From positions 1 through 37,459 of IMG/VR virus record IMGVR_UViG_3300043411_000956: 37,459 bases of DNA. One strand, written 5' to 3'. The DNA is from a virus. The notes beneath the pieces were generated by a model, which was not told the DNA's origin, searched no databases, and saw only the letters and a program-made list of their open reading frames with translations. Shown in pieces: positions 2,479-34,814 of this stretch; the first letter of the stretch is position 1, and each line of letters begins with the position of its first letter. The position numbers were made by a program, and so were the translations under genes.

Positions 2479-3084
2479 ATGCACAACGCCCTTTCTACTG
2501 TAAACTTTGGGCCAGTGGATAGAGTCCAGCGCGGAAATTCCCGCATTGACTTAAGCCGCGAGCAAATCGCGGCTGAGGGCTTTCGACACAAAAACCAGGC
2601 ATTAATCGATGGTGGCATAAAGTACGGTTCGCGGAGTGAGATCGCTTGCTCTCGCTTACTGCAAAAGTATCTTGCTGGCTGGCTTCCGGTAGAGGGGCAA
2701 ACTTTCCAGGTTCCCATCGGCTATAACAAAAGGTGCGACTTCTACATACCCGCCCGTGACCAGCTCATAGAGTTTCACCCTATCATTCTCAAATACGAGA
2801 TACAGCACAGGGGCGCAGCGCGAGAGATTGAGCGCGCACTATGGCGCATGGATCGCGAAACAAGAGCAGGGCTTGAGGATGCTCTCGTGGCAGAGCTCCG
2901 GCTTCAGTACTTCAAAAAGAGGCGCTTTGCGCTCGATTATGGCGACGGGCGTTTTGCTCACACAGAGCTAGTTTTGGTCTGTTCAAGTGAAGAATTTATC
3001 GAGCGGGTGTTGCGGTTCAACGGTCAGAAGAGGGCGGAGGCTTTAGCGGAGTGGAAAAGGGTAGTAAGCAGCAAGAAGATCTAG
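2479..3084 (+). CDS. Putative PD-(D/E)XK-like nuclease
   Basis: The product has 201 residues. After a basic N-terminus, the motif GSRSEIACSRLL supplies a helix glutamate (E54). It is followed by a beta-hairpin with D87 in KRCDFYIP and E98-F-H100 in LIEFHP. This spacing, helix E then D then ExH/ExK, is the core layout of PD-(D/E)XK enzymes, with histidine where lysine is usual. The later half is charged and helical. The function is inferred as DNA cleavage or resolution in recombination or packaging. The His replacement leaves open that it is a divergent or inactive member. It lies 8 bp after the toroid-like gene. Confidence 0.5.
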   Translation: MHNALSTVNFGPVDRVQRGNSRIDLSREQIAAEGFRHKNQALIDGGIKYGSRSEIACSRLLQKYLAGWLPVEGQTFQVPIGYNKRCDFYIPARDQLIEFHPIILKYEIQHRGAAREIERALWRMDRETRAGLEDALVAELRLQYFKKRRFALDYGDGRFAHTELVLVCSSEEFIERVLRFNGQKRAEALAEWKRVVSSKKI

Positions 3085-5729: not shown

Positions 5730-7957
5730 ATAACGACACAGAAGAAAAGCCGAAACCTACTGAGATGGCCGAATTGGCTGTTTTTTGGGGGCGTCAGCTC
5801 AAAGGCGCTAAGAAAGAGTTTGACCGATGGGAGAAAGACGCCAAAGACGCTATCAAGCGTTATCGCGATGAGTCGGAACTAATCAGCGATTACGACGGCA
5901 ACGGCGCGGCAAAGTTTAACGTGCTCTGGTCTAACACTCAGGTGCTACATCCGGCGCTATACTCCCGCACCCCAAAAGCTGAGATAGAACGGCGCAACAA
6001 AGATAGCGACAAGATTGCGCGTCTTGCGTCAGAAGTTTGGCAGCGGGCGGTTGAGTATTCTATCGCCGAATATGCGTTTGATGAGGTCATTAACGGCGGG
6101 GTGTTTGACCTTCTATTGCCTGGGCGCGGCGTTGCCCGTGTGGCCTATGAAGCAGAGTTTGAGACTGTAGAAGCGCAGCCTATCCCGGTCATAGCGCAGA
6201 AAGGCAAGCTGTTTGGTCAAGACGGCGCGCCAGTCAAGGCGAAGCCTGACGACGTAATCCAGACGCCGGAGGGCTTTGCGGTCAAGCAGTATGTTGAGCG
6301 GGTGGCTAAGGAAAAGGCGCTTTGTAAGTACGTTCACTGGTCTGATTTCTGTCATACGCCAACCCGTATGTGGTCGGCTGTCTGGTGGGTGGCCTTTCGG
6401 TCGCACCTTGACCGCGAAGAGCTCACCGAGAAGTTTGGGGAGGAAGTCGCAACCGAGGTTCCTTACTCATCGATGCCCAAGGGTGCTGACGAAGCAGAGA
6501 GTCGCAGCGATAGCAAAGAGGGGAAATGCGCGGAAGTCTGGGAGATATGGGATAAGCGCAAGAAGCACGTCGTTTACTTGGTCAAGGGCTACGATAAAGC
6601 CGTACAGGTCAAGCCCGATCCCCTCGGCTTGGATGATTTCTTCCCGTGTGGGCGTCCGTTACTCGCCAACATTTCAACCGACAGTCTAAAGCCTCGGCCT
6701 GACTTCGCGATGTATCGCGACCAAGCTAGAGAGCTCGATGAACTCACGATGCGCATCTCTCTTCTTACGTCGTCCCTCCGGGTGGTTGGCGTATACGACA
6801 GCTCAATGGAGGCCCTTGCTCGCATAACAAGCGAGGCGACAGAGAATAAGATGATCCCAGTGGATGCCTGGGCAATGCTTGCTGACAAAGGCGGCCTCAA
6901 AGGCGTCATGGACTTTTTCCCGATGGAGCAGGTAGCCGAGGTTCTTACGCGGCTCTATGATGCTCGGGACAGGACACTACAAAGCATATACGAGCTCACC
7001 GGCATCTCTGACATTGTGCGCGGCGCGTCCGACCCGGGCGATACGGCAACGGCGCAGCAGATTAAGGGGCAGTTTGCTACACTTCGTATTAGCTCGCGGC
7101 AACAGGCGGTTCAAGAGTGGATACGTGACCTCATAAGCCGAAAGGCTGAGATTATCGCGGAGCACTTCGCACCTGAAACGATTCGCATGATATCCGGGTA
7201 TGACGGCTTAGCCGGCGCAAATCCGCAAGACCCGCAAGAATTTGAAGCCATCATTCAGCTGTTGCGTAATGACCCGCTCAGGCGCTACCGGATAGCGATT
7301 GAAACCGATTCTACCCTTGCTGTTAACGACCAAGCCGAGAAGCAGAGGGTTAACGAGTATATCCAGGTTGTCGGACAGTTCCTCTCTAACTCTCTCCCTC
7401 TCGCGGCTCAGGTGCCAGAGATGGCCCCATACCTCGGCGAGACTCTTAAGTTTGTGGCACGGCGCTACAGAGCAGGGCGGCAGATGGAGGAGAGACTCGA
7501 ACAGGGAATTGATGCTCTTATTCAGAAGGCATCTCAACCGCCACCACCACCGCCACCCGACCCGCGAATTGCAGCAGAGCAAGCCAAAGCGCAACTTGAG
7601 CAGCAGAAACTACAGTTCGAGGCGCAGAAATTCCAGGTTGAAACACAGCTCGAAGAGCAGCGCATGGATAAAGAGCAGCGCTTTGCAGTCGAAAAGATGG
7701 CAATGGAGATGGAAAAAATCAGGGCTGAGATGCAACTCAAGCTCGCTGAAATTTCCTCCACTCAACAACAGCAGTACGCGGTGCAGGCTGAGAAGGCAGC
7801 GGCAGCCAGTGCGTCAGCCCCAGCAGCGCCAGCAGCCCAACCCTCGGTTATCAATGTCACTTTACCCAACGCCAATAAGCGCATTGTCTTAGGGCCACTG
7901 GACCCGGTAACGGGCGCTAGACAGGGAGCCGTGATCAGCGAGTCAGACGATGGCTGA
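5726..7957 (+). CDS. Portal protein, 743 aa
   Basis: Its size is close to P22 gp1 and it sits directly after terL. The N-terminal part has the portal pattern of long helices and a conserved-looking ARELDELTMRISLLTSSLRV segment with a later TGISDIVRGASDPGDTATAQQIKGQ helix region, typical of podovirus portals. A Pro7 run (about residue 605) is followed by a Gln/Glu-rich coiled coil to about residue 695 and an Ala/Pro tail, matching the barrel extension and crown of long portals. TTG 5726 overlaps the terL stop and has AAGGAAG upstream. It forms the dodecameric DNA gate and head-tail joint. Confidence 0.9.
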   Translation: MNNDTEEKPKPTEMAELAVFWGRQLKGAKKEFDRWEKDAKDAIKRYRDESELISDYDGNGAAKFNVLWSNTQVLHPALYSRTPKAEIERRNKDSDKIARLASEVWQRAVEYSIAEYAFDEVINGGVFDLLLPGRGVARVAYEAEFETVEAQPIPVIAQKGKLFGQDGAPVKAKPDDVIQTPEGFAVKQYVERVAKEKALCKYVHWSDFCHTPTRMWSAVWWVAFRSHLDREELTEKFGEEVATEVPYSSMPKGADEAESRSDSKEGKCAEVWEIWDKRKKHVVYLVKGYDKAVQVKPDPLGLDDFFPCGRPLLANISTDSLKPRPDFAMYRDQARELDELTMRISLLTSSLRVVGVYDSSMEALARITSEATENKMIPVDAWAMLADKGGLKGVMDFFPMEQVAEVLTRLYDARDRTLQSIYELTGISDIVRGASDPGDTATAQQIKGQFATLRISSRQQAVQEWIRDLISRKAEIIAEHFAPETIRMISGYDGLAGANPQDPQEFEAIIQLLRNDPLRRYRIAIETDSTLAVNDQAEKQRVNEYIQVVGQFLSNSLPLAAQVPEMAPYLGETLKFVARRYRAGRQMEERLEQGIDALIQKASQPPPPPPPDPRIAAEQAKAQLEQQKLQFEAQKFQVETQLEEQRMDKEQRFAVEKMAMEMEKIRAEMQLKLAEISSTQQQQYAVQAEKAAAASASAPAAPAAQPSVINVTLPNANKRIVLGPLDPVTGARQGAVISESDDG

Positions 7958-16037: not shown

Positions 16038-17854
16038 TGATGCGCTTATTGGCCGCTGTCTTCTCTGCGTTCTTTGCGCTTGATGCGTGGGCTTTAGCTT
16101 GCGCGTCTAATGCGGCGGGTGCGTGGTCGACGGCGGGAACCTGGACATCATGCGGCGGTGGGTCACCTGGAATTGGGGACACCGCTTCAATCACACATGC
16201 CGTTACTGTTTCCGGTAACACCACTGTCGGCAATTCCCCGGCAGAGGGAAACTTCGTTGTAACTGTGTCTGGTTCTGGTACCGTTTCCGTCAACTCTGGA
16301 ACCTTCACAGCTCGCGGCGGTGTGTCTCTTGCGACATCTTCAAATACTTGGACGCAAGCGGCTGGCACGGGTTTTGTTTCTGATGCGTCAAATGCCACTG
16401 ACCCAACTAATCAGCAATATGAATTCCGCATCGGCACAGGTCACAATAGTGGCCCTCGATTAATCCTCAACGGGTCTTCTGGTTCTCGTGTCACAATGTC
16501 GTCACAATCGGGTGGCGGTAATTTTTACATAACGGATGGTGATAACGGGCCTTGGCTTCAGGGTGGGCTCATAACCGCAACCTATGCCGACTTCACCCGT
16601 TGTGGTGATGCTTCTCATCGATGCATTCGCACATCTCCCTCTGGAGCGGGTAATGCAGTCACAATCCAGAATTCGAGATTCGATACGACTGGCGGCATTG
16701 GCGGAACTTATAATATCTCCACCACCTCCGACATTTCTTTCACTGATAACTGGTTTACCGCCACAGCTCAAAGCGAAACCATCAAGTGGGAAAACGCTTC
16801 TGGCTATACCTCTGGCACTCGCGACTTTCTCAGGAACGTTGCTGATAAGGTTGTTCAGTTCTACACCCCGGCAGGATGGACGATAGAAGATAACGTCTTC
16901 AATGGCTCAATCGAGGCCACTACCGGCACATGGGTAAACTTCCAGAACAACTTTGTGCGATTCGGCACTGGAACAGGAACCCCATTCGTACTTCAGGGGC
17001 CAACTGGCCCGGGTTACAACTACGGCTTTAACTCTGACTCCGCTAGTAGTAATCCGCATTATTGGCAAGTTCAATCTACTCTCACTGTTGATTCTTTGAT
17101 CTGCGAGAGCGCCTACGCAACAAACGCAACTGGCGAGGGTGATTGTGTTCAGTTCGGTTCGCCGGGTGGCGCTGTCACAATTGACGTCACTGGCGTGCTG
17201 GTTATCCCCGATGCATTCGGCGGAACGTCTGGCACAATAGTTTCTGCTCTTGGCAATGCGAACATCACGGCGAATGTTTACCGCAATACCCACGTTGCTA
17301 ATACGACCGATGAAGCGTGTATAGCTCTAGGAGAAACATATGGGGGGCATCCTGGTATGTTCACCCGCATCGACTCTAATCTCTGCGTAAACTTGACGGC
17401 TGGAACTGACGGTCCGATTGCTTGGGACTCTGGTGGAAATGATTCTGTAACTGACCTAATTAGCGCGGCAAATGGAAATCGCAACTGTCACTACCAGATC
17501 GACTCTGTTCGATATGTAAATCTAGAGCTGTCAACCGGTACATTAGGCGCGGACGACACAAGCGCAAATCCGTCTTTTGTGGACTCCTCTCGCGACCTTG
17601 CTTCATGGGCTGGCTCTATTGGTCTTTCCGCTACAAATGCGGCGGCCCTCACTTGCCTAAACGCTATGAACTCAGCCTCGGCAACGGTCGGTTGTACCCC
17701 CTCGGCTCTCTCAACTTGGGTCACTGCGGGCTTCGTCCCTAGGTCGGCATCTCTCGACGGTGCAGGGCTCTCTGGGGTCGATTGCGGGGCGTTTGATGTT
17801 GCTTTGTCGACTGGCAATAAAGGGGCCTGTCTATTAATGGGAGTGGGAAAGTGA
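16037..17854 (+). CDS. Signal-peptide, right-handed beta-helix-like protein, tailspike candidate
   Basis: The product has 605 residues. Residues 1-20 (LLAAVFSAFFALDAWALA) are a signal peptide. The body opens with GAWSTAGTWTSCGGGSPGIGD and ITHAVTVSGNTTVG, then repeats of short beta strands with Asn/Gly/Thr turns, as in pectate-lyase-like beta-helices and secreted parallel beta-helix proteins. Its size and fold fit a tailspike or polysaccharide-degrading enzyme, but the signal peptide suggests transport to the cell surface. TAATG overlap joins it to the other secreted protein, so the pair is made together. Confidence 0.65.
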   Translation: MMRLLAAVFSAFFALDAWALACASNAAGAWSTAGTWTSCGGGSPGIGDTASITHAVTVSGNTTVGNSPAEGNFVVTVSGSGTVSVNSGTFTARGGVSLATSSNTWTQAAGTGFVSDASNATDPTNQQYEFRIGTGHNSGPRLILNGSSGSRVTMSSQSGGGNFYITDGDNGPWLQGGLITATYADFTRCGDASHRCIRTSPSGAGNAVTIQNSRFDTTGGIGGTYNISTTSDISFTDNWFTATAQSETIKWENASGYTSGTRDFLRNVADKVVQFYTPAGWTIEDNVFNGSIEATTGTWVNFQNNFVRFGTGTGTPFVLQGPTGPGYNYGFNSDSASSNPHYWQVQSTLTVDSLICESAYATNATGEGDCVQFGSPGGAVTIDVTGVLVIPDAFGGTSGTIVSALGNANITANVYRNTHVANTTDEACIALGETYGGHPGMFTRIDSNLCVNLTAGTDGPIAWDSGGNDSVTDLISAANGNRNCHYQIDSVRYVNLELSTGTLGADDTSANPSFVDSSRDLASWAGSIGLSATNAAALTCLNAMNSASATVGCTPSALSTWVTAGFVPRSASLDGAGLSGVDCGAFDVALSTGNKGACLLMGVGK

Positions 17855-20398: not shown

Positions 20399-21948
20399 TG
20401 TACAGAGAGGCTGCACAGGAAGAGGCGCAGAGCTATACGTTACCGGCCCCCGTTGGAGGCTGGAACGCTCGCGATCCGCTTGATGTGATGGCTGAGACAG
20501 ACGCTATCGGGCTTGTGAATATAATCCCAGACACGAGCGTATGTCGGCTTAGGCGCGGCTTTCGCGAACATGCCGACACCATGGGAAGCGGAGCAGTTGA
20601 GACTCTTGCGGAGTTTTCAAGCGCGGCAGGGACGAAGAAGCTGTTGTCGGCGGCAAACGGCAATATATACGACTGTACTACTTTCGGCGCGGCTGGTACT
20701 TCGCTTGGAAGCGGTTTTACTTCGAACAAATGGCAAACGACAAACTTTCGAGCATCGGGTGCTAACTACATAGTTTTTGCGAATGGCGTTGATCAACCGA
20801 AAAAGTGGGATGGAACGACTTTCAACGACGCGGCGTATACGGACGCTGGACTAGCAGACGATGCCGTCTTAGTTCAGCCATGGGCGTACAAGAGCAGAAT
20901 CTACCTGGTTGAAATCAACACTACTCGGTTTTGGTATACCGCCACGGGTGCTGTTCAGGGTGCGGTAACTGTAGAGGATTTGGCTTCCATCTTTTCACGC
21001 GGGGGATATCTGCAGTGGGTTTCCTCATGGTCGCGAAACATCTCTTCTGGCGTCGCAGAGTTCTTTGTTGCCTGTTCCTCTATGGGCGAGGTTCTAGTTT
21101 ATCAAGGTTCTTATCCCGGTGATACCGCAACGCCGTGGGCTCTTGTCGGTAGGTACTTTCTGCCCCCTCCTCTTGGTAGGCGGTCATTCTTTCATCTTGA
21201 TGGCGACCTCTGCATTCTTACGACTCGCGGCGTTATTCCCCTTTCTCGCGTTGTCGGGGCGACTGATGCACAAACGTACACCACGGTTAGTGATAAGATT
21301 CAAAAAGCTTTCAACGATTCCGCATCGTCCTACTCAACGAATTTTGGATGGCAGGGGGTCGTTTATTCCCGTGGTAACTACGCTCTAATCAACTTGCCGA
21401 TGGTAGAGGGCGGGAGATCGGAGCAATATATCATGAACCTCATGACCGGCGCTTGGGCGCAGTTCCAAGGGCAGAACGCGGCTTGCTGGGCGATTCATAA
21501 CGACAAGCTTTATTTTGGTGCCACCTCTGGCGGTACGGTGTATGAAGCCGACTCTTCTCAAGACGACAACGGGTCCAATATCGAGGGCTACATAAAGCAA
21601 GCCTTTAGCTATTATGGGGACAGAAGCCGCAAGAAGCGGTTTCTCATGGCAAGGCCCATCCTCACCGGAAGCCCACAAATTTCCTTTGCAATTGGAATGG
21701 ATGTGGATTTCTCAAATCAAACATTGACGGGAACGGTCACAACTTCCGGCGCAACAGGCAGTGAGTGGAATACCGCGCCTTGGAATACGTCGTCATGGTC
21801 CGAGGGCGATGAGGTAAGCGCAGATGACTGGTATGGAATCAGCGGGCTTGGACGTTGCGGAGCCTTGCGGCTTCAGGGTGATTTTAACGGCGTCTCATGG
21901 GCGCTTAATGCAACGCAGATTATTTTTGAACCGGGGAATTACATCTAA
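20398..21948 (+). CDS. P22 gp10-like tail plug / packaged-DNA stabilization protein
   Basis: The product has 516 residues. It begins with TLPAPVGGWNARDPLDVMAETDAIGLVNIIPDTS, the signature of podovirus tail proteins related to P22 gp10, and continues with repeated beta blades (VFANGVDQPKKWDG, GDLCILTTRGVIPLSRV, DKLYFGATSGGTVYEAD) that fit a beta-propeller. Such proteins close the portal channel and carry the distal tail. It starts at ATG 20398, sharing a base with the upstream stop. Confidence 0.8.
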   Translation: MYREAAQEEAQSYTLPAPVGGWNARDPLDVMAETDAIGLVNIIPDTSVCRLRRGFREHADTMGSGAVETLAEFSSAAGTKKLLSAANGNIYDCTTFGAAGTSLGSGFTSNKWQTTNFRASGANYIVFANGVDQPKKWDGTTFNDAAYTDAGLADDAVLVQPWAYKSRIYLVEINTTRFWYTATGAVQGAVTVEDLASIFSRGGYLQWVSSWSRNISSGVAEFFVACSSMGEVLVYQGSYPGDTATPWALVGRYFLPPPLGRRSFFHLDGDLCILTTRGVIPLSRVVGATDAQTYTTVSDKIQKAFNDSASSYSTNFGWQGVVYSRGNYALINLPMVEGGRSEQYIMNLMTGAWAQFQGQNAACWAIHNDKLYFGATSGGTVYEADSSQDDNGSNIEGYIKQAFSYYGDRSRKKRFLMARPILTGSPQISFAIGMDVDFSNQTLTGTVTTSGATGSEWNTAPWNTSSWSEGDEVSADDWYGISGLGRCGALRLQGDFNGVSWALNATQIIFEPGNYI

Positions 21949-23258
21949 TGGCTAAAACTTTAGACGAATTAGTAGCGCGGAAAAAGGCGATTAAATCAAA
22001 GATGGAAGCACCCGGCGCTAATGTTGAAGCGCTACAGGGGCGACTTTCTGGCACGAAGGAGAAGATTCAGGGAATGAAGGGGCTTTTTGCTAAGCCTGGG
22101 CAGAGTGGATTCGATAACCGACTCAATGCCTCCGGGCAGCAGTGGGCGGATTCAAATTATCAGAATGGATTCAATGTTCCAGCGGGGGCTTTTAATTCCT
22201 TGCCTCACGGGGCGGAAACGCAAGACGCTTACAATATCGGCGTGATGGGGCGGCAGGACGATTTTAATCGACCTAATGAATTCAACCCTTACGGCTCACA
22301 GACTTTCGAAGTTGGGCCAGACGGGCGAATGGTTCAGCGTACAAGTTTAAGCCCAGAGCAACAGCAGATCCTAGACCAACAGCAAGGGCTAGACATCGGA
22401 ATGGGCGATCTTGCTCAAAGGCAACTTGGGGGTGTTGAGTCGTCCTATTCCTCTCCTTTTTCTTTAGATGGTATCGGCAACGACCCGCGCAATATCGACT
22501 TTTCGGCTGACAGGCGGCGCATAGAAGATCAAATCTCAGGGCGCTTTGAGGAGTTAAATGCTGACAGATTTTCGAAGCAATCAGCCGACATGGCGCAAAG
22601 CATGGCCGATAGAGGGATTGACCCTAACAGCAAATGGGCAGAGCAAGAAAAGCTTTCTCTTTCACGGCAGCAGGAAGACGCAAGGCGCGGGGCGCAACTC
22701 GGCGCAATTGGCATGGGTGGCGAAGAGATGCAGCGCTCTTACTCGATGAGCCAAGACGCGAGAGGAAGAAGTATCGACGAAAACATACTACAACGCGACA
22801 GACCCTACACCGAGCTGTCTAATATCCTCGGTAGCCGTCAAGGCGTCGTCAATCCGAACTTCCAAGCCCGATCAAACATCGACGTGCCGAATATCGACAT
22901 GTTCGGCGCGGCAACTGGAAATGTACTACAGACGAAGCAAAACGAGTGGCAGGGCGGGCAAAACGCGGCAGACAGGGCGCTACAGGAAAAGGGCCTTGCA
23001 ATGCAGGGTGCTGGCACTATGAGCACGGCAGATAGGATTGCCCTTGTGAACGCCGAAAGAGACGCAGCGATTGCGAGAGACAATAACCAACTCGGAAGAC
23101 CGCCTAAACCATCGGGACCGCCGACAGCGCAGCCCGCATTTGCGCCGGCGCAACAGCCAATGCAGAGCAACGCAATCACGCGCAGCGCCACGGATTTAAG
23201 CTACCCGCGTAAGCAGTCGAACAGCGGCGGCGCTCCTTTTAAGTGGAGGGGCTACTAA
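21948..23258 (+). CDS. Internal or tail-associated virion protein, 436 aa
   Basis: The product contains NEFNPYGSQTFEVGPDGRMVQRTSLSPEQQQILDQQQ, a pattern I recognise from podovirus internal or tail proteins, and long Gln/Glu/Arg-rich helical repeats with SADMAQSMADRGIDPNSKWAEQEKLSLSRQ. The rest is low-complexity and helical, fitting an ejected or tail-associated component. It ends in SNSGGAPFKWRGY. It overlaps neighbours at both ends. Confidence 0.7.
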   Translation: MAKTLDELVARKKAIKSKMEAPGANVEALQGRLSGTKEKIQGMKGLFAKPGQSGFDNRLNASGQQWADSNYQNGFNVPAGAFNSLPHGAETQDAYNIGVMGRQDDFNRPNEFNPYGSQTFEVGPDGRMVQRTSLSPEQQQILDQQQGLDIGMGDLAQRQLGGVESSYSSPFSLDGIGNDPRNIDFSADRRRIEDQISGRFEELNADRFSKQSADMAQSMADRGIDPNSKWAEQEKLSLSRQQEDARRGAQLGAIGMGGEEMQRSYSMSQDARGRSIDENILQRDRPYTELSNILGSRQGVVNPNFQARSNIDVPNIDMFGAATGNVLQTKQNEWQGGQNAADRALQEKGLAMQGAGTMSTADRIALVNAERDAAIARDNNQLGRPPKPSGPPTAQPAFAPAQQPMQSNAITRSATDLSYPRKQSNSGGAPFKWRGY

Positions 23259-24454
23259 TGGCTTACGAGGAATTACTTCAGGCTTTAGTTGGACGGAAAA
23301 ATCAACTTGAAAGCGAAGACCCTTTCTACTCTATCGGTCGCGGTGTAGCGGCTACGAGTCCGGTCGTTCAGGGGGCTTCGTTTGGGGACAACCTTGGGGC
23401 GGTGGCGCTTCAGGGCTTATTGTCCGGGTTGGGGACGGGCATAGGCCGATCCCGCGTAGAATCGCAGTACGGTAAAGAGGCTGATGCTCTTCGCGGTTTC
23501 TATCAAGCGCCACAGGATCAAAGGGAACAGCTTGCATCGAGTCCAGAAATGGCCCCTTACAAAGGCTTTTTAGCTTATGACCAAGTTTCTCAGCAAAGGG
23601 ACCAAGAGAACGAGGCTAGAGAACTGAGCAAAGCTGTTGCGTTGGCAAAAACTAAGGCGACGTTTGAAAATCCTCGGCTTTCGGAGCTTGCTGGGGATGT
23701 CAGCATAGAGCCCACGGCTAACGGTAGATACGAGGTTAAAAGGTCCGGGCAAAAAATGCCGATAGCTCAAGAGTCGGCCTCTGGTGCACAACCTGGAAGT
23801 CTCACCAACAAGCACCTACAGATATTTAATCAGTTGGTAGAAAGCGGCGTTCCCTCCGTCCAAGCATCGGCAGCGGCAGACAAGCAGATGGATATAGAAC
23901 GAAAGAAGATGACTCGGACTTATAAGGCAATCGAGGCGTCTCGGGAAAAGGCGGCAACGCTTGAGTCTATGGCAAGAACGGCAAGCGAGGGGCTATCGGG
24001 GGCAGGAAGAACCGGCCCGGGATCTAGCGACACGCTCGCGTCTCTTGCTGGTTTGGTATCCTCCGATCAGGCAAACAAGGCCGCATCTACAACGCTTCTG
24101 AACTCCATAAAACCTGACGCATTGCGGGCGCAAAAGGTTCCGGGCATGGGCGCGATGTCAGACTTTGAAAGTAAGCAGTTTTTTGCAGCCGCGCCCGGTA
24201 GCGATAAGACACCAGAGCAAAACTCCGCACTGATACGAAAGATTCAGCAAGCGGCGCAAATAGAGCAGCAATATGCGGACTTCGTCGAATCGTACGTAGA
24301 AGACAGGGGAACCGATGTCGGAGCACAACAAGCGTGGGACAAGTACAAACGGGAGGTAATGCCTGAAATTTTCAGCGGGACGCAGTCTCAAGCAAATAGC
24401 GGCGGGGATGTGATAACGGCGCCAGATGGTAAGAAATTCAGGTTTATCGACTAA
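23258..24454 (+). CDS. Internal virion (ejection) protein candidate, 398 aa
   Basis: An in-frame GTG at 23243 exists, but ATG 23258 overlaps the upstream stop (TAATG) and is preceded by GTGGAGGGG. The protein is helical and charged, with a long coiled coil (residues about 95-330) and Gly/Ala-rich N-terminal part. Its size and place before the transglycosylase protein fit an ejection protein. No specific motif was found. Confidence 0.65.
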   Translation: MAYEELLQALVGRKNQLESEDPFYSIGRGVAATSPVVQGASFGDNLGAVALQGLLSGLGTGIGRSRVESQYGKEADALRGFYQAPQDQREQLASSPEMAPYKGFLAYDQVSQQRDQENEARELSKAVALAKTKATFENPRLSELAGDVSIEPTANGRYEVKRSGQKMPIAQESASGAQPGSLTNKHLQIFNQLVESGVPSVQASAAADKQMDIERKKMTRTYKAIEASREKAATLESMARTASEGLSGAGRTGPGSSDTLASLAGLVSSDQANKAASTTLLNSIKPDALRAQKVPGMGAMSDFESKQFFAAAPGSDKTPEQNSALIRKIQQAAQIEQQYADFVESYVEDRGTDVGAQQAWDKYKREVMPEIFSGTQSQANSGGDVITAPDGKKFRFID

Positions 24455-26421
24455 TGGATGAAGTTACTCCTATCACGCGGGCAGAGTATGCAAAGCTTTA
24501 CGGCGGGCAGGAAGAGCCTACCCCTATTTCCCGTGCTGAGTATTCAAAAATGTATGGTGGCGGCTCTCCGGGCGAAAAGGCGCAAGGGGTTCTAACCTCG
24601 GCAACTCAGGGATTAACTTTCGGCCTCGGTGATGAGATCGTTGCTGGGTTGGATGCAGGGACCAATTACGTTGGGGACATGTTGCGTGGGCGTAATAAAG
24701 ATATCTCGATAGGTCAGCAGTACGACGCGGCACTGGAGGCAAGACGAGGCCCACAAAAGCAGTTTGAAGAGCAGAATCCGATCGCGTCAACCGCAGCTGA
24801 AATCGCGGGGAATATTCCAACGGCGTTTATCGGTGGAGCTCCTTCGAGCATAGCGGGGGCTATGAAACTCGGCGCGGGTCTTGGTGGTTTGTATGGCTTT
24901 GGCAAGGCAGAGGGCGGGGCGGCAGAAAGGGCGAAGGGCGCGGCAATGGGCGGCGCTGTCGGGGGCTTAGCTTCAGGCGCTATTGCTGGCGCTGGTAAGT
25001 TTCTAAAGGGAGCCGGAACTGTTGCAGACGATGCGGGGCAAAGGCTCAAAGCAGGGGCTTTAGGAGCAACAAAGACAGATTTTAAAATGTCGGCTAAGTA
25101 CAAAGGGCTCATTGATACAGCCGAGGGCGGGAAAAGTACCAAGCTGATGCAGTCAATTCAGAATGTGATCGATGATGGAACCTTTACCAAGTCGGGGGCT
25201 AGTTCAGCCGAGGATATGCTTTTAGCGAACACTTCGCGGATCGATTCGTATGACGACGCTTTGGCAAAAGTTTTGGCCGATGCCGATTCGGTTGCGACAC
25301 AGTCGGGTGTCAGAATTGAGCCAACCTTTTCAAAAGCAAAACAGTTTCTTGCGAGAGCAAATCCACTAGAGAAAAAGGCTCTCGAAAAAGAGTTTGCAGA
25401 GGCTCAGCTTGCTATCGGAGATGCTCTTGATGGCTCTCTCTCTAAAATGCAGGAAGTGAAGCGGTCCCTTTATCGCTCGGTTTATTCCGAGAATGGAAAG
25501 GCAAAACAAGAACTGGCGAGGGCTCTTGCAGAAGACCTTAAGGACGGAATCGAGAGGGGCGCAGCATTCGCCACAAAGTCGCCAGAAATGGCTGCGAAGG
25601 TTAAGGCCCTTAACGCGAAGATGGGAGAACATCTAGAGGTTCAAACTCTACTCACGCGACGGCTTGGACAGGAACAGGGCTCGGATGCGGTAAAGGGGAT
25701 AGTGGGAGCGCTCAGAACTTCCGGGGGGATGCTCACAACCCCAACGGTCATAGGTGGCCTTGTCGGGGGTTCGGGCGGTGGGGCGTTAGGGCTCGCCACG
25801 GGGGCGGCTATAAACCTAGCGGGGCGGCCCGGTTCGCGCATGGCTCTTGGTAAGGGTCTTCAGTCAGTTGCTCCAAAAATTGGACAGGCGGGAAGAGGCT
25901 TAATGGCCGCATCTCCACTCGGCGGTTTTCTTGGCGGGATCGGTGGAGCATCAAGCCCGAAGGGCAAAAAAGAGGGAGTACAGATGGAAGACATAAAAGC
26001 ACCGAAGGTAGAGCAGCAGGATATTTCCGCGATTATTGAGAAAACGGCGGGCTCTCCTGAGATGGCAAAGCTTACAAAGGCCGTCATTAGGGCAGAGAGC
26101 AACGGCGATCCGAGAGCGCAAAGCGGAGCAGGTGCTCAAGGGCTTATGCAAATTATGCCAGCGATGCAAAAGTCTCTTGGCGTAAAAGACCCGTTCGACC
26201 CGGCTGATAACATTCGCGGCGGCGTTGCTCTCTTGAAAGAAGAAATCAAGCGCTTCGGTGGAAACCTAGAACTTGCTTTAGCTGCATACAACGCAGGAAG
26301 CCCAAAAGTGAAAGCAGCGATTGCAAAAGCTGGCTCTATGGACTGGGAAGAGGTCGCGAAGTATTTGCCGGAAGAGACAAGAAACTACGTGCCAAAAGTT
26401 AAAAAGTATATCGAGGTATAG
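24454..26421 (+). CDS. Ejection protein with C-terminal lytic transglycosylase domain
   Basis: The product has 655 residues. Two near-identical 14-residue repeats open it (TPITRAEYAKLYGG at residues 5-18, TPISRAEYSKMYGG at 23-36). Gly/Ala-rich hydrophobic stretches that could enter membranes follow, and then a helical middle. The last 120 residues are a soluble lytic transglycosylase domain: catalytic E548 in IRAESNGDPRA, GAQGLMQIMP, AAYNAG and TRNYVPKV. It should open the peptidoglycan during DNA entry, as T7 gp16 does, and is probably injected with DNA. It starts at ATG 24454. Confidence 0.85.
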   Translation: MDEVTPITRAEYAKLYGGQEEPTPISRAEYSKMYGGGSPGEKAQGVLTSATQGLTFGLGDEIVAGLDAGTNYVGDMLRGRNKDISIGQQYDAALEARRGPQKQFEEQNPIASTAAEIAGNIPTAFIGGAPSSIAGAMKLGAGLGGLYGFGKAEGGAAERAKGAAMGGAVGGLASGAIAGAGKFLKGAGTVADDAGQRLKAGALGATKTDFKMSAKYKGLIDTAEGGKSTKLMQSIQNVIDDGTFTKSGASSAEDMLLANTSRIDSYDDALAKVLADADSVATQSGVRIEPTFSKAKQFLARANPLEKKALEKEFAEAQLAIGDALDGSLSKMQEVKRSLYRSVYSENGKAKQELARALAEDLKDGIERGAAFATKSPEMAAKVKALNAKMGEHLEVQTLLTRRLGQEQGSDAVKGIVGALRTSGGMLTTPTVIGGLVGGSGGGALGLATGAAINLAGRPGSRMALGKGLQSVAPKIGQAGRGLMAASPLGGFLGGIGGASSPKGKKEGVQMEDIKAPKVEQQDISAIIEKTAGSPEMAKLTKAVIRAESNGDPRAQSGAGAQGLMQIMPAMQKSLGVKDPFDPADNIRGGVALLKEEIKRFGGNLELALAAYNAGSPKVKAAIAKAGSMDWEEVAKYLPEETRNYVPKVKKYIEV

Positions 26422-27536: not shown

Positions 27537-28259
27537 TCATTTGTTTTTCCTTTTTTCAGAGATTCCCTTTTGAACGTCCTTGTCTATTAGCTGGCCTATT
27601 TCCTCCCAAGAAATCTCAAGTTTTTTTCGAATCAATGAGAGGATCTCGAAAGAACACCCACGGGCCTTTTCTTCATAGTAGTAGTAACTTTGCGGGAGTA
27701 TGTCTAAGTGGCGAGCCATCTCGTACTTAGTGAGGTTAAGTTTATTGCGAAGTGTCTTAAAAAATAACATAGTTCTTTCCCTTCTACCGATTGCTGTTCT
27801 ATCACCCTTTGAGGAATTCTCTGAGTGCGTTATTACCTGTAGGTTAGCGAGCTCGTATCCCATCCAGCCATCGATCCTGTCGATCGTTGGTTTGATTATA
27901 TTCCTATTCATAGGGGCACACTTACTATACTTCCTATACATAGACTCAAATTTTGTCTTCTTAAGCCACTCCCAAAACTCAAAGAAAGAATAGGGTAAGC
28001 GTGACTTTGTGATTCTTTTATGTCGAACTTTCATGCCGTTAAAAGATCGCAGTGCTTGAGCGATCGCAGAATCAGAGCCCTCACAATTCTTGCAAATTAA
28101 TAGCTTTTTGGGGTCAATCCTACCCCGCTGGCCCTCGCAGTAACGCTGATAACGAGTCCCCCAAACGCCGTCCCGACACTCAACAACCGGTTTGCCAGCT
28201 CCTCTAAACCGGCCCTCTTCTAACTCCGTTTTACATCCAAGGCAAAAATGTTTGTCCAT
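27537..28259 (-). CDS. Zinc-ribbon / HNH-like / XRE-type HTH fusion protein
   Basis: The product has 240 residues. N-terminal zinc-binding cysteines are C6/C9, C28, C41 and C56/C59. Residues 124-152 (PTIDRID then GYELANLQVITHSENSSKGD) match the second half of HNH endonuclease motifs. Residues 167-222 have the XRE-type helix-turn-helix pattern (LRNKLNLTKYEMARHLDIL, then YYYYEEKARGCSFEILSLIRKKL). The gene is the sole minus-strand gene beside the early unit, divergent from it across an 86-bp region with two identical sites. It may be a repressor carrying a nuclease-like body, a self-regulated homing endonuclease, or both. A missing leading His of the HNH core leaves catalysis unproven. Confidence 0.75.
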   Translation of the reverse strand: MDKHFCLGCKTELEEGRFRGAGKPVVECRDGVWGTRYQRYCEGQRGRIDPKKLLICKNCEGSDSAIAQALRSFNGMKVRHKRITKSRLPYSFFEFWEWLKKTKFESMYRKYSKCAPMNRNIIKPTIDRIDGWMGYELANLQVITHSENSSKGDRTAIGRRERTMLFFKTLRNKLNLTKYEMARHLDILPQSYYYYEEKARGCSFEILSLIRKKLEISWEEIGQLIDKDVQKGISEKRKNK

Positions 28260-28273
28260 CTTAAAGAATCCTA

Positions 28274-28286
28274 TTCAGTATACTTG
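28274..28286 (+). promoter_or_regulatory. Operator-like repeat 1 (TTCAGTATACTTG)
   Basis: This 13-bp copy contains the perfect palindrome AGTATACT (28278-28285). On the minus strand it contains TATACT (28283-28278), the leftward -10, and it runs into the rightward -35 TTGACG. A protein bound here would cover the leftward promoter. Confidence 0.65.
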
Positions 28287-28313
28287 ACGTCTACACGATA
28301 AGTTCAGTATACT
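28284..28313 (+). promoter_or_regulatory. Rightward early promoter
   Basis: -35 TTGACG (28284-28289), an 18-bp spacer and -10 TATACT (28308-28313); both elements match five of six sigma-70 consensus bases. It should drive the early operon from 28346 onward. It is the best sigma-70-type promoter noticed in the window. Confidence 0.7.
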
Positions 28314-28315
28314 TG
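28303..28315 (+). promoter_or_regulatory. Operator-like repeat 2 (TTCAGTATACTTG)
   Basis: The second identical 13-bp copy lies 29 bp from the first. Its palindrome AGTATACT (28307-28314) contains the rightward -10 TATACT (28308-28313). A protein bound here would block the early promoter. Confidence 0.65.
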
Positions 28316-28345
28316 TTCGGGAAGTAGATTGCAAACGAGGAGCTT

Positions 28346-28564
28346 ATGGAAAACGAGGAAGCAGAAATACATAGACTGGAGCTAGAGCTTGAGCTCTACG
28401 CAGATGGCGCAAGGTGCGAAGGGTGCAAGAGGTTCTTTGCTGGCTCAAGCCTGGTGAAGCTCTGGCCCACCGAGGGCTACTACTGCGAAGAGTGCGAGGC
28501 GGCGATGGAAGCAGAGCAGAAAGATATGGAAGCGAGAGAATCAGATTTTTTAAGGAGCAGATAA
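28346..28564 (+). CDS. Small zinc-ribbon protein, first early gene, 72 aa
   Basis: Four cysteines, C24/C27 and C47/C50, form a zinc ribbon inside an acidic, largely helical protein. It is the first gene after the early promoter, with GAGGAG upstream, and its stop touches the ATG of the recT-like gene. Being first and small it may act early on host functions or support the annealing protein, but no family is recognised. Confidence 0.75.
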   Translation: MENEEAEIHRLELELELYADGARCEGCKRFFAGSSLVKLWPTEGYYCEECEAAMEAEQKDMEARESDFLRSR

Positions 28565-29436
28565 TGAACGAGATTGTGAACTACGAAGACAAAAAAGTAC
28601 TGCAAACGATTCGCGAGACGGTAGCGATAGGGGCGACGGATAGTGAGTTCGCTATGTTTATCGGGTTTTGCAAGGCGACCGGGCTGAATCCCTTTAAGCG
28701 CGAGATCTGGTTCATCAAAGTCAATGGTCGAGTCCAGATGATGACCGGGATCAACGGGTTCCATGCGATAGCAAATTCGCACCCTGAGTATGATGGGATT
28801 GAAAGCGGCTTGGTAGGGAAGGGGGGAGAGTACCTTTCTGCAACCTACCCCGGCAACGATTTCATCGGAGCGTGGGCGCGGGTACATAGGAAGGATCGCA
28901 AGCTCCCAATTGAGGGCGTGGCGATGCTTTCCGAGTACGATAAAGGTCACGGCAACTGGAAGACGATGCGCCGAGTTATGATCAACAAATGCGCCGAATC
29001 GGTAGGACTCAGAAAGGGTTTTCCGCAGCAATTGGGCGGATTATATACGGACGCGGAGTATCAGCCAGAAGCCAAGCCCATAGAAGAATCGGCGGTAGTT
29101 GTTGAGCCTCTGAAGCCCGTAGAACCGACCTTTTATCTCATCGAAGCGCCAACGAAAGAGCAGACTTTATTCATGAGCAAGCGCGGTGAGTACGTTCAGG
29201 AGCTCGGCGCGTGGTGCGTGAAGAAAGAGCTTGAGCCGAGAGAGATTGAGAAGTTGGCCCCGTACAAAACAACGCTCGAAGAAATTGAGGCGACCAAAGC
29301 GCAAGCGGCAGCGGTTGCGGCACAAGTCGAGCCAGTAGGGGAGACGCAGAAAGTAGAGCGTGAGGAAACTCCCCTCGAAAAAGCTAAGAAGCGAGTAACG
29401 AAAATGCTGGAGGGTACAGATCATGAAGTTATATGA
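28564..29436 (+). CDS. recT: RecT/Bet-type single-strand annealing protein
   Basis: The ATG at 28564 is preferred over an upstream in-frame start at 28414. The 290-residue product has the RecT/Bet pattern: SEFAMFIGFCKATGLNPFKREIW, VQMMTGINGFHAIANSHPEYDG, ARVHRKDRKLPIEGVAML and KCAESVGLRKGFP. Such proteins pair complementary single strands in phage recombination. The C-terminal 100 residues are charged and variable. It lies directly before a Gp157-like gene, and no matching exonuclease of lambda-Exo type was seen, unless the VRR-NUC protein serves that role. Confidence 0.85.
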   Translation: MNEIVNYEDKKVLQTIRETVAIGATDSEFAMFIGFCKATGLNPFKREIWFIKVNGRVQMMTGINGFHAIANSHPEYDGIESGLVGKGGEYLSATYPGNDFIGAWARVHRKDRKLPIEGVAMLSEYDKGHGNWKTMRRVMINKCAESVGLRKGFPQQLGGLYTDAEYQPEAKPIEESAVVVEPLKPVEPTFYLIEAPTKEQTLFMSKRGEYVQELGAWCVKKELEPREIEKLAPYKTTLEEIEATKAQAAAVAAQVEPVGETQKVEREETPLEKAKKRVTKMLEGTDHEVI

Positions 29437-31195: not shown

Positions 31196-31303
31196 ATGAG
31201 ATTGCAGCTCATGTTCGACATACTGAAAATTCTACTCAAGGCGCTCTTTCAGCGCAAGAAAATCAATAAAAAAAATGAGTGGCTTAAGGCGAGGTGCAAA
31301 TGA
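31196..31303 (+). CDS. Basic amphipathic small ORF, 35 aa
   Basis: Its TGA overlaps the ATG of the replication gene (ATGA) and it codes a basic amphipathic helix (MFDILKILLKALFQRKKINKK). No clear Shine-Dalgarno sequence is present. It could be a leader peptide coupling translation of the initiator gene, or an accidental frame. Confidence 0.35.
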   Translation: MRLQLMFDILKILLKALFQRKKINKKNEWLKARCK

Positions 31304-32202
31304 GTCGCTTACCGGCCATGCAGTTCTACCCCGCAGATTGGCAAAGTGATCCCGGTATTAGGGCGCTTGGTTTTTTTGATCGCGGTGTTTGGTTTGAGAT
31401 GTTGTGTGTAATGCACTTCTCTTCAGAGCGCGGAGTTTTGCTACTTAATGGCCGCGCTATGACCGACGACGAAATTGCTCGCTCGCTCGGTTTGGATAAG
31501 CAAATTCTAACCACCACCTTAACCACCCTCCTAAGTAGTGGGGTGGCAAGCCGTAGGGAGAGCGACGGGGCGATCTACTCGCGTCGGATGGTGAGAGATG
31601 AGTACATCCGCCAGGAACGAATAAAAGCGGGGAAGAGCGGCGGCAACCCTAATTTGCTTAAGCAAAATCCAACCACTGGGGTTAACCAAAATCCAACCCC
31701 TTCATCTACATCTACATCTACATCTACTAATAATAGAAAAGAAAGCATCGATGCCCCCTTATCGGGGGCGGCGGTCGAATCGACTAAGCCAAAAAAATCA
31801 AAATCAATCGAAGATCGATTTCAAGAGCTACAGTTTCCGAACGAATGGAACAGTACTGCATGTTACGCGATGCGCAAGTGGCTTGAGTACCGCTCGGAGA
31901 TTAGAAAGCCACTCACGGCCAGAAGCTTACAAGCTCAAATTGAAAACTATAAAAGCTCGCCCGATGAGTTTATTAGGGCGGTGAATCACAGCATTGGGAA
32001 GGGTTGGGTGGGGCTTTTCGCCCCGGATCCGCCCGGTCGAATGGGTGGCAAGTTAAGCGCAGAGGAACAGCGAAAAAAGAACTGGGAAATTTTAGAGGGT
32101 AAGAGCCATGACGAAAGAACAGGTACTTCAATTTTTGAAAGTGATGACGGAAGCATTCAGATCCTTTCAGCCAACCGAGGCGACGGTTCCACTGTGGGCT
32201 AG
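31300..32202 (+). CDS. DUF1376-type replication protein
   Basis: The product has 300 residues. The N-terminal 110 residues (FYPADWQSDPGIRALGFFDRGVWFEMLCVMHF, then DDEIARSLGLD and GAIYSRRMVRDE) are the winged-helix DUF1376/YdaU-like module used by phage replication initiators. A Ser/Thr-rich linker (STSTSTST) follows, and a C-terminal helical domain (FQELQFPNEWN... ALSQIEN-like) resembles DnaD/helicase-recruiting parts. It probably binds the origin and loads host DnaB with the next gene product. Its last 95 bp overlap that gene. Confidence 0.75.
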   Translation: MSRLPAMQFYPADWQSDPGIRALGFFDRGVWFEMLCVMHFSSERGVLLLNGRAMTDDEIARSLGLDKQILTTTLTTLLSSGVASRRESDGAIYSRRMVRDEYIRQERIKAGKSGGNPNLLKQNPTTGVNQNPTPSSTSTSTSTNNRKESIDAPLSGAAVESTKPKKSKSIEDRFQELQFPNEWNSTACYAMRKWLEYRSEIRKPLTARSLQAQIENYKSSPDEFIRAVNHSIGKGWVGLFAPDPPGRMGGKLSAEEQRKKNWEILEGKSHDERTGTSIFESDDGSIQILSANRGDGSTVG

Positions 32203-33510: not shown

Positions 33511-33704
33511 GCCAGCGCGGAGAGTCTCATACCGGCAGCAAGCTCACTCAGTCGTTTGTGCGTGAGATTATGAAAGCTCTGCAAGCGAAAGAAAGAGCGA
33601 AGGATATCGCGGCGCGCTATGGAGTTTCGGAAGCGACGGTGTCGCGGATTCGTAAGTCTTCTACGTGGGCGCAAATTACAAAGGTAGAGGTGACAAATGT
33701 CTAA
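33507..33704 (+). CDS. Small helix-turn-helix protein, 65 aa
   Basis: A homeodomain-like helix-turn-helix is clear: LTQSFVREIMKALQAKERAKDIAARYGVSEATVSRIRKSSTW (about residues 13-54), as in phage regulators and terminase-like DNA binders. It is encoded directly before the VRR-NUC nuclease, overlapping it by 8 bp. It could regulate the operon or guide nuclease binding. Confidence 0.65.
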   Translation: MSQRGESHTGSKLTQSFVREIMKALQAKERAKDIAARYGVSEATVSRIRKSSTWAQITKVEVTNV

Positions 33705-34080
33705 AGTAGTTCAGTTCCCGACACCCACCGAAGCCCAAACAATGGAGGCAATCTTTGATTGGCGCGATGTTGTTGTTGGGACTTACCCAGAATTAGAACT
33801 ACTGCACCACGTCATGAACGAGGGTAAGCGAGGATGGAAGGCACAGCGAGCGGTTAAGCGCGGCGGGGTGCTTAAGGGCGTTCCCGATATCTGCTTACCT
33901 GTGGCGCGGTGCGGTTTTATTGGCCTTTACATCGAGCAAAAGAGAGAAGGGGAGAAGCCGACCTTTGAGCAACTTAGAATAGCGCAGTTACTTAGGGACC
34001 AAATGCATGCGGTGTACTTGTCCTACACGGCGGTGGATACGCAGCAAATAATTCTTAATTACATAACTGGGAGAGCTTAG
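33697..34080 (+). CDS. VRR-NUC domain protein
   Basis: The product has 127 residues. GVPD (61-64) and IEQK (79-82) are the D and E-x-K of the VRR-NUC branch of PD-(D/E)XK nucleases; the later EQLRIAQLLRDQMHAVYLSYT helix fits the fold. Standalone phage VRR-NUC proteins are thought to resolve or cut branched DNA. It follows a small helix-turn-helix gene and precedes the nucleoside-hydrolase-like gene. Confidence 0.75.
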   Translation: MSKVVQFPTPTEAQTMEAIFDWRDVVVGTYPELELLHHVMNEGKRGWKAQRAVKRGGVLKGVPDICLPVARCGFIGLYIEQKREGEKPTFEQLRIAQLLRDQMHAVYLSYTAVDTQQIILNYITGRA

Positions 34081-34814
34081 TGGTCAATAAATGCTGGATA
34101 GACACAGATATTCACGCCTCAGAAACAGACGATATCCACGCGCTGATTTACGCACTTGTGATGCACTTACAGAAGCGTGTCGAGATTGTGGGAATCTCTA
34201 TCGGTTGGCCTCGCGGCGAAATGAAGCTCGCGGAAAAGGTCTTTAAAGCTTTCGAGAAAGATGGCTTCAAGGTTTCGATACCGCTCTATCAAGGGGCAAA
34301 GAAGCCGTATGGAGCTGGTATTCCCAAACAAACGATTCACGCTCTCTGGTATGCGCTCCATCAGGGCGCGTTGTTTTGTGCTTGGGGATCCTTGACGACC
34401 TTTGCCGAAGCATCAAGTTCTCTAAAGAAGCTTACTCCACTTCATGCGATCACGAGTTGGAACCGCGAGCAAGATAAGGCCGCATATAGCGTCATTAAAG
34501 CAGGGTATTCTCGGTTTTGGATCGACAACGAGAAAGACTTCCGGCGCATTTATCAAGGCTGGCCAGTAGCGAAAAACAGAGCGTGGGTCAAGAAAATCGC
34601 CTCGATGATGACGCCGAACGTGCGGAGGCTTTGGCTTGATGCGGCAGCTAAAACGAACACGGGGAAAGATACATTTAAGGGCGGGGATATTCCCTCGCTT
34701 CACTGGGCGATCCACTACGACGGGGGGCCGATGAAATATGTCACTCGGCGCAAAAAGATTCTCGATGAGTTCACGGAAGAAGTTGAATCACTTTTTGGGA
34801 AGGGGGAAGAATGA
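34080..34814 (+). CDS. Nucleoside-hydrolase-like (DUF1593-type) protein
   Basis: The product has 244 residues. IDTDIHASETDDIHALIYAL (D8, D10, D17, D18) matches the N-terminal Asp cluster that binds calcium in nucleoside hydrolases (DTDxxxxDD). VEIVGISIGWP and KGGDIPSLHWAI (GGD at 201-203) match the later ribose-loop and GDIPS/GDTPS part of DUF1593-type relatives. These enzymes cleave N-glycosidic bonds. A phage copy could salvage bases, act on NAD or modified nucleosides, or counter defence. It starts with GTG at 34080. The catalytic identity is not proven. Confidence 0.6.
   Translation: MVNKCWIDTDIHASETDDIHALIYALVMHLQKRVEIVGISIGWPRGEMKLAEKVFKAFEKDGFKVSIPLYQGAKKPYGAGIPKQTIHALWYALHQGALFCAWGSLTTFAEASSSLKKLTPLHAITSWNREQDKAAYSVIKAGYSRFWIDNEKDFRRIYQGWPVAKNRAWVKKIASMMTPNVRRLWLDAAAKTNTGKDTFKGGDIPSLHWAIHYDGGPMKYVTRRKKILDEFTEEVESLFGKGEE

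Follow-up and report, generated by a model that had tools for sequence, protein, structure and literature searches.

The window analysed here, the whole 37,459-nucleotide stretch of IMG/VR virus record IMGVR_UViG_3300043411_000956, carries a gene whose product (P0001) joins a zinc-ribbon and HNH-type body to an XRE-type helix-turn-helix (HTH) and which is divergent from the early operon of the phage. From the domain matches of P0001 and the conserved sites next to its gene, we consider it rather likely that the protein is an operator-binding regulator of the phage early switch, in which an XRE HTH has been joined to a DRID-type, PacI-like HNH body. The pieces are known separately, as XRE switch proteins, DRID phage nucleases and nuclease-regulator fusions. 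For all of them together, at a phage switch that has conserved operator-like sites, no match was found in the open literature that was searched, which was limited. If P0001 both represses and cuts, it would show how a nuclease from a mobile phage family can be turned into a switch regulator.

The fusion gene and its relative

The P0001 reading frame fills its interval exactly (Table 1), starts with ATG and encodes 240 amino acids. The nuclease-like body comes first and the HTH is C-terminal: the CxxC pairs are C6-x-x-C9 and C56-x-x-C59, DRID occupies residues 127-130 and GYELANLQVITHSENSSKGD residues 134-153. The preliminary description had proposed that CxxC pairs, an HNH-like DRID segment and a C-terminal HTH are combined in this one protein, and this reading is borne out by the ORF itself, by matches to PHROG 1035 and Pfam HTH_3 and by a full-length relative, P0002. 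In the hmmscan search, HTH_3 covered residues 168-221 with an E-value of 1.9e-4 and 21.8 bits, against a cut-off of 23 bits, and in the six-frame genome search it rose above the cut-off with 23.8 bits; HTH_3 and its relatives are the only Pfam matches of the protein. The best PDB match of residues 157-233 is C.Esp1396I (VIA-align Z 10.0, 2.2 A over 76 residues). These matches indicate that P0001 carries an XRE HTH domain, a trait of repressor-type regulators.

Table 1. Features of the fusion gene, the divergent intergenic region and the first genes of the early operon
Feature	Position	Strand	Basis
Fusion gene P0001: zinc ribbon, DRID/PacI-like HNH body and XRE HTH	27537..28259	-	ORF and domain matches; 41% full-length relative; model pLDDT 81.6
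XRE-type HTH, residues 157-233	27561..27791	-	HTH_3; VIA-align to C.Esp1396I; identity to P0002
Predicted beta-beta-alpha nuclease-like core PTIDRIDGWMGYELANLQVITHSENSSKGD, residues 124-153	27801..27890	-	Family conservation; PacI alignment; model
CxxC...CxxC, presumed zinc ribbon, residues 6-59	28083..28244	-	Cys kept in P0002
Operator-like site 1, TTCAGTATACTTG	28274..28286	+	Repeat scan; same motif in L001
Promoter-like site of the early operon, TTGACG-18-TATACT; -35 overlaps site 1, -10 in site 2	28284..28313	+	Consensus scan only
Operator-like site 2, TTCAGTATACTTG, with -10 boxes on both strands inside	28303..28315	+	Repeat scan
Promoter-like site of the fusion gene, TTTGCA-18-TATACT (or TTGCAA-17); -10 in site 2	28306..28335	-	Consensus scan only
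Gene that opens the divergent operon; small Cys-rich product of 72 aa	28346..28564	+	
RecT-like annealing protein, divergent operon	28564..29436	+	PHROG 2780, E 2e-40

P0002 is 41% identical to P0001 and is encoded on IMG/VR contig 3300049893_001519 (phage G001, locus L001). The HTH is the best-conserved part, with 46 of 77 residues identical (60%), versus 48 of 144 in the body (33%). Because this relative matches over its full length, keeps the same order of parts and is also encoded divergently from RecT/Gam genes in a second phage, the fusion is more than a chance event, and the sequences support a real joining of zinc-ribbon, HNH-type body and XRE HTH in one protein. A mis-called ORF, or parts that were joined by chance, might be suggested by the HTH score slightly under the Pfam cut-off in hmmscan; with the same architecture along the full length of P0002, and with both HTH and beta-beta-alpha element in the predicted structure, this explanation is practically ruled out. 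Statistics on the conservation of the fusion are thin, as it has two known members. At the sensitivity used, searches of viral contigs, GTDB species genomes, phage records and plasmids turned up no third full-length member. The searches used single proteins, a profile, a profile of the HTH only and a back-translated KARGCSFEI pattern (on viral and genome contigs), with GTDB searched by profile, and plasmids were covered as well. The one match of the KARGCSFEI pattern in a genome contig is not a relative, and the matches in phage records cover the body only, without the XRE part.

The preliminary description had also placed the gene at a switch position, divergent from the early operon. This is confirmed, as the opposite operon encodes RecT, Gam and replication proteins (after the genes of Table 1, a Gam-like protein at 29423, an O-like replication protein at 31294 and a helicase loader at 32108), and the P0002 gene is likewise divergent from the Gam and RecT genes of G001. 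Between the window phage (G000) and G001, identity amounts to 41% for the terminase, 29% for the portal, 54% for RecT and roughly 27-42% for other virion proteins, and by these sequence comparisons the two are related phages. The identity of the fusion (41%) equals that of the terminase and lies between those of the portal and RecT. Compared with the window phage, the late genes of G001 are inverted with respect to its early genes, and the position of the fusion gene is still kept. Because this place beside Gam/RecT was kept despite the flip of the late genes, and because the fusion diverged like a core gene, we regard it as a resident of the phage lineage and not as a recent arrival. Relatives of the portal include those of Myxococcus phages Mx8 and Mx9. 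A link of the protein with immunity, as envisaged in the preliminary description, and a temperate life of the two phages stay hypothetical, because the Pfam models Phage_integrase and Resolvase matched nothing in either contig (the contigs may be incomplete).

Predicted structure

An AlphaFold model of P0001 based on a 69-sequence alignment reached a pLDDT of 81.6; an earlier model from 2 sequences was poor (pLDDT 56) and its PDB matches were mainly HTH proteins. The newer model comprises a beta-beta-alpha element followed by the XRE domain, with strands at residues 124-128 and 140-144 and a single helix (145-174) that runs straight into the HTH. Block-mean pLDDT is 91-95 over residues 121-150, and confidence is low at residues 27-48, between the CxxC pairs. 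The prediction thus contains a beta-beta-alpha element in the body as well as the HTH, the two folds that the preliminary description expected. The PDB lists obtained for this model with Foldseek and VIA were filled by HTH proteins, which says nothing against a PacI-like fold of the body. In the viral structure library, the best matches were relatives of the body, the first being a putative endonuclease of Pseudomonas phage KIL5 (E 3e-5).

The nuclease-like body

By profile comparison, the body of P0001 belongs to PHROG 1035, an 'endonuclease VII / homing' group that is widespread in phages. This 'endonuclease VII' profile matches the body of P0001 with an E-value of 5e-7 and residues 1-145 of P0002 with 2e-7 (profile positions 61-212 of 271), and three further HNH/endonuclease PHROGs match P0001 too; Pfam HNH models gave no match in P0001 with hmmscan. 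In P0001, the XRE HTH stands in for profile positions 213-271, a C-terminal stretch that is NUMOD-like in some members. Many short members of the group stop at the same point, so that this stretch is no defining trait of it.

Members of the group, such as the KIL5 endonuclease, share with P0001 the zinc ribbon and the ...W...PSxDRID..GY...N.....(T)..EN core; P0001 differs from them in its XRE HTH and in the divergent switch position of its gene, where theirs lie within operons. In phages, relatives of the body are as a rule encoded by lone genes flanked by conserved ones, for example between the genes of RNA polymerase subunits or beside that of DNA polymerase, and some have NUMOD-type modules at their C-terminus. 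Two pattern scans for the family yielded 124 loci and 92 distinct core-carrying proteins. None of these 92 has an XRE part, and only 2 of the 82 relatives with usable flanks are divergent from the upstream ORF. A stand-alone DRID protein of about 130 amino acids is common in phages (loci L023-L102); it follows the pattern YEKT..GF...YRNM.SR...TPSVDRIDS..GY...N..WVTHSENSRRG and has no DNA-binding extension.

In the 69-sequence family alignment, D127, R128, Y135 and N148 are found in all sequences and N139 in 68; the conservation of D and R is partly guaranteed by the search patterns, and Y135, N139 and N148 lie outside them. Cysteines occupy the C6, C9, C56 and C59 columns in 40, 39, 37 and 37 members, respectively. 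Position 128, which in classical HNH enzymes holds the general-base His, is Arg in 69 of 69 sequences, and in the P0001 body, as aligned, this His is absent.

When the two family profiles were compared with solved structures, both matched the restriction enzyme PacI (3ldy, 3m7k), itself an HNH nuclease, with a statistically weak E-value of 0.002 each. PacI ranked first for the body-only profile, and second for the full profile, after the NUMOD part of I-HmuI. Although weak, the match is collinear, spans the N-terminal CxxC ribbon and VDRSDSFEGYSPQNARLACFICNRIKSN, and falls on the invariant residues of the family: D127-R128-Y135-N139-N148 of P0001 align with D92-R93-Y100-N104-N113 of the PacI chain (segment 88-120), so that the two would share a D-R-(6)-Y-(3)-N-(8)-N arrangement together with the CxxC ribbon. 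Unlike P0001, PacI has no HTH. In PacI, the Asp and an Asn hold the metal and a Tyr is placed as general base (PMC4081073), and Y100 would correspond to this tyrosine. An early reading, in which Arg in the place of His marked a dead site, was given up after the PacI match.

The term HNH-like, used in the preliminary description, can be kept in part: it agrees with the HNH/endonuclease PHROGs and with the predicted beta-beta-alpha element, but the general-base His is missing and PacI is the best solved match. On alignment evidence, the body is not a classical HNH domain and belongs to a DRID...Y...N...N family. It keeps every family-conserved residue and is likely to have retained the binding of zinc and of a catalytic metal. 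For the DRID group as a whole, the fact that Arg replaces the HNH His throughout the family, combined with the invariant Tyr, suggests PacI-like catalysis. We thus propose that this large and mostly uncharacterised 'endonuclease VII' group of phages may use a PacI-like Tyr site and not a dead HNH site.

The divergent intergenic region

The divergent intergenic regions of the window (28260-28345, 86 bp) and of L001 (106 bp) both contain two copies of a palindromic site, TTCAGTATACTgaa, the core of which is the -10 box of promoter-like sites. In the whole window, the exact 13-mer of Table 1 has only these two occurrences. The sites of L001 read ATTCAGTATACTGA (at about 5935-5936) and ATTCGGTATACTGA (at about 5975-5976), and the motif common to the regions of both phages is the palindrome TTCAGTATACTGAA. 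The pair of regions was compared with 5000 dinucleotide shuffles of itself, scoring the longest word repeated in both regions with one mismatch allowed in one copy. A palindromic 11-mer is doubled in both regions (one copy with one mismatch), and none of the 5000 shuffles exceeded a 7-mer. A shared 12-base word, taken without the repeat condition, is less striking, as it was reached in 11 of 5000 shuffles; it is therefore the double occurrence that carries the weight. The sites are spaced by 29 bp in the window and by 40 bp in L001, a difference of 11 bp or about one helical turn, which would keep them on roughly the same face of the helix.

Matches to the promoter consensus are only slightly more frequent than in shuffled sequence, with 3 versus 1.7 expected in the window and 2 versus 0.8 in L001, and in every promoter-like match of both phages the -10 hexamer is the GTATAC core of the site. 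The paired palindromic operator-like sites are thus predicted to overlap divergent promoter-like sites. Conserved as a pair over the -10 boxes and not equalled in the shuffles, they support the view of P0001 as an operator-binding repressor of its own gene and of the early genes. A search for the operator pair elsewhere in viral contigs returned matches that fall within a long structural gene or on AT-rich repeat sequence, with no regulator there, and these were discarded.

Possible function of P0001

Classical phage repressors of the CI/LexA and C2 types have an XRE HTH, a divergent gene position and paired palindromic sites over promoters. Their HTH is combined with a peptidase or dimer domain, whereas in P0001 it is C-terminal and has a nuclease-like partner. 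Operator binding, repression, and catalysis with its target are what we infer for P0001. The protein would dimerise via its XRE part and, as a dimer, occupy both palindromic TTCAGTATACT sites of the divergent intergenic region. Bound there, it would mask the -35 and -10 boxes of the early promoter together with the -10 box of the fusion gene's promoter, and both promoters would be repressed. If the nuclease site is competent, the genome of the phage itself would have to be spared from cutting, for example because dimer states compete, which has been proposed for C-REase fusions (PMC3850674), or because the geometry at the operator is unsuitable, as it is for I-TevI (PMC2988022).

The nuclease-like body had been described as unusual for a phage repressor. 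This stands insofar as the open literature searched (a limited library) yielded no earlier case of an HNH domain in a phage repressor, but nuclease-regulator fusions as such are known, in C-REase proteins and I-TevI. The nuclease of CR.NsoJS138I is a PvuII orthologue, of a nuclease fold different from that predicted for P0001. CR.NsoJS138I is an active C-protein/REase fusion that, like P0001, has an XRE regulator and a nuclease in one chain and a self-regulating promoter, the latter being predicted for P0001 (PMC3850674). It is part of a restriction-modification system, whereas for P0001 no methyltransferase of three Pfam families was found in either contig, and its parts have the order nuclease then HTH. 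I-TevI, a homing endonuclease and autorepressor that can bind its operator without efficient cutting (PMC2988022), also unites nuclease and DNA-binding parts in one protein; unlike P0001, it is an intron-encoded GIY-YIG nuclease with other DNA-binding modules.

The chances that P0001 cuts DNA at some site, presumably a non-operator site or only in some state, as with I-TevI and the C-REase fusions, appear evenly balanced. The body may instead be catalytically silent, P0001 being a pure repressor in which a zinc-stabilised dimerisation, DNA-bending or signal-sensing domain replaces the usual protease or dimer domain. We hold this as a tentative alternative: it agrees with the absence of the general-base His and with the lower conservation of the body (33%) than of the HTH (60%), and Pfam methyltransferase families PF01555, PF00145 and PF02086, which might shield the phage DNA, had no match in either contig. 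It accounts poorly for the five core residues (D127/R128/Y135/N139/N148) and four Cys that P0001 and P0002 both keep despite 33% body identity, and a Tyr in place of His works in PacI (PMC4081073). That one protein acts both as switch repressor and as PacI-type, Tyr-using nuclease, cutting for example competitor phages or a cognate site, with the two activities made exclusive by competing dimer states, seems rather unlikely at present; a fusion that represses and cuts would be the phage version of a C-protein/restriction-enzyme fusion.

Two further readings give the nuclease the leading part. P0001 might be a mobile, free-standing homing-type endonuclease that settled next to the early operon; its HTH would then serve mainly to select targets and to regulate its own gene, in the manner of I-TevI, and the phage switch would not be under its control. 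The body family, with its single genes wedged among conserved phage genes and its NUMOD-type modules in some members, would agree with this, and for I-TevI both endonuclease activity and autorepression are proven (PMC2988022). We nevertheless judge it unlikely, given that the place adjacent to RecT/Gam is kept in two phages at core-gene divergence, that few genes of the family are divergent (2 of 82), that the operator-like sites overlap the early promoter as well, and that phage, plasmid, viral and genome collections yielded no third copy. A C-REase-like repressor-nuclease that cuts incoming competitor DNA, as a one-protein barrier to superinfection, is more doubtful still. The PacI-like core, the C-protein-like HTH (Z 10.0 to C.Esp1396I) and the known active C-REase fusion (PMC3850674) speak for such a protein; yet XRE folds are all alike, neither contig has a methyltransferase of the three tested families, and among defence-system models only a generic HTH was matched. 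The regulator of the early switch is our preferred reading of P0001.

Neighbouring genes

In both phages, the gene that faces the fusion across the operator-like sites encodes a small Cys-rich, zinc-ribbon-like protein (28346-28564, plus strand; L001 5655-5894, minus strand). A sequence similarity between these two first early genes had been suspected, and none was found. The protein could be an antirepressor, or it could be unrelated to the switch. A second, weak HTH_3 match lies in the early region at 33600-33668 (+) and in G001 at 16698-16814 (+), there within an ORF of 74 amino acids; these matches possibly mark a Cro-like counterpart. The product of 34080-34814 (+) matches inosine-uridine nucleoside hydrolases over part of the model and with a score under the cut-off.

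Elsewhere in the window, a 412-aa protein (1232-2470, +) has a long Pro/Ser/Thr repeat near its C-terminus (PTPTPTASPSPS...) and no Pfam match. It is followed by a 201-aa protein (2479-3084, +) whose middle part looks like a small nuclease by eye, with no Pfam or PHROG match. In G001, L153 3347-5224 (G001 21847-23727) encodes 626 amino acids with a signal-peptide-like start; by eye it resembles a secreted polysaccharide lyase, and it has no Pfam match. Lastly, a 655-aa protein of the window (24454-26421, +) ends in a transglycosylase SLT domain (E 3e-25) and is likely to be an ejected or virion-bound peptidoglycan enzyme.
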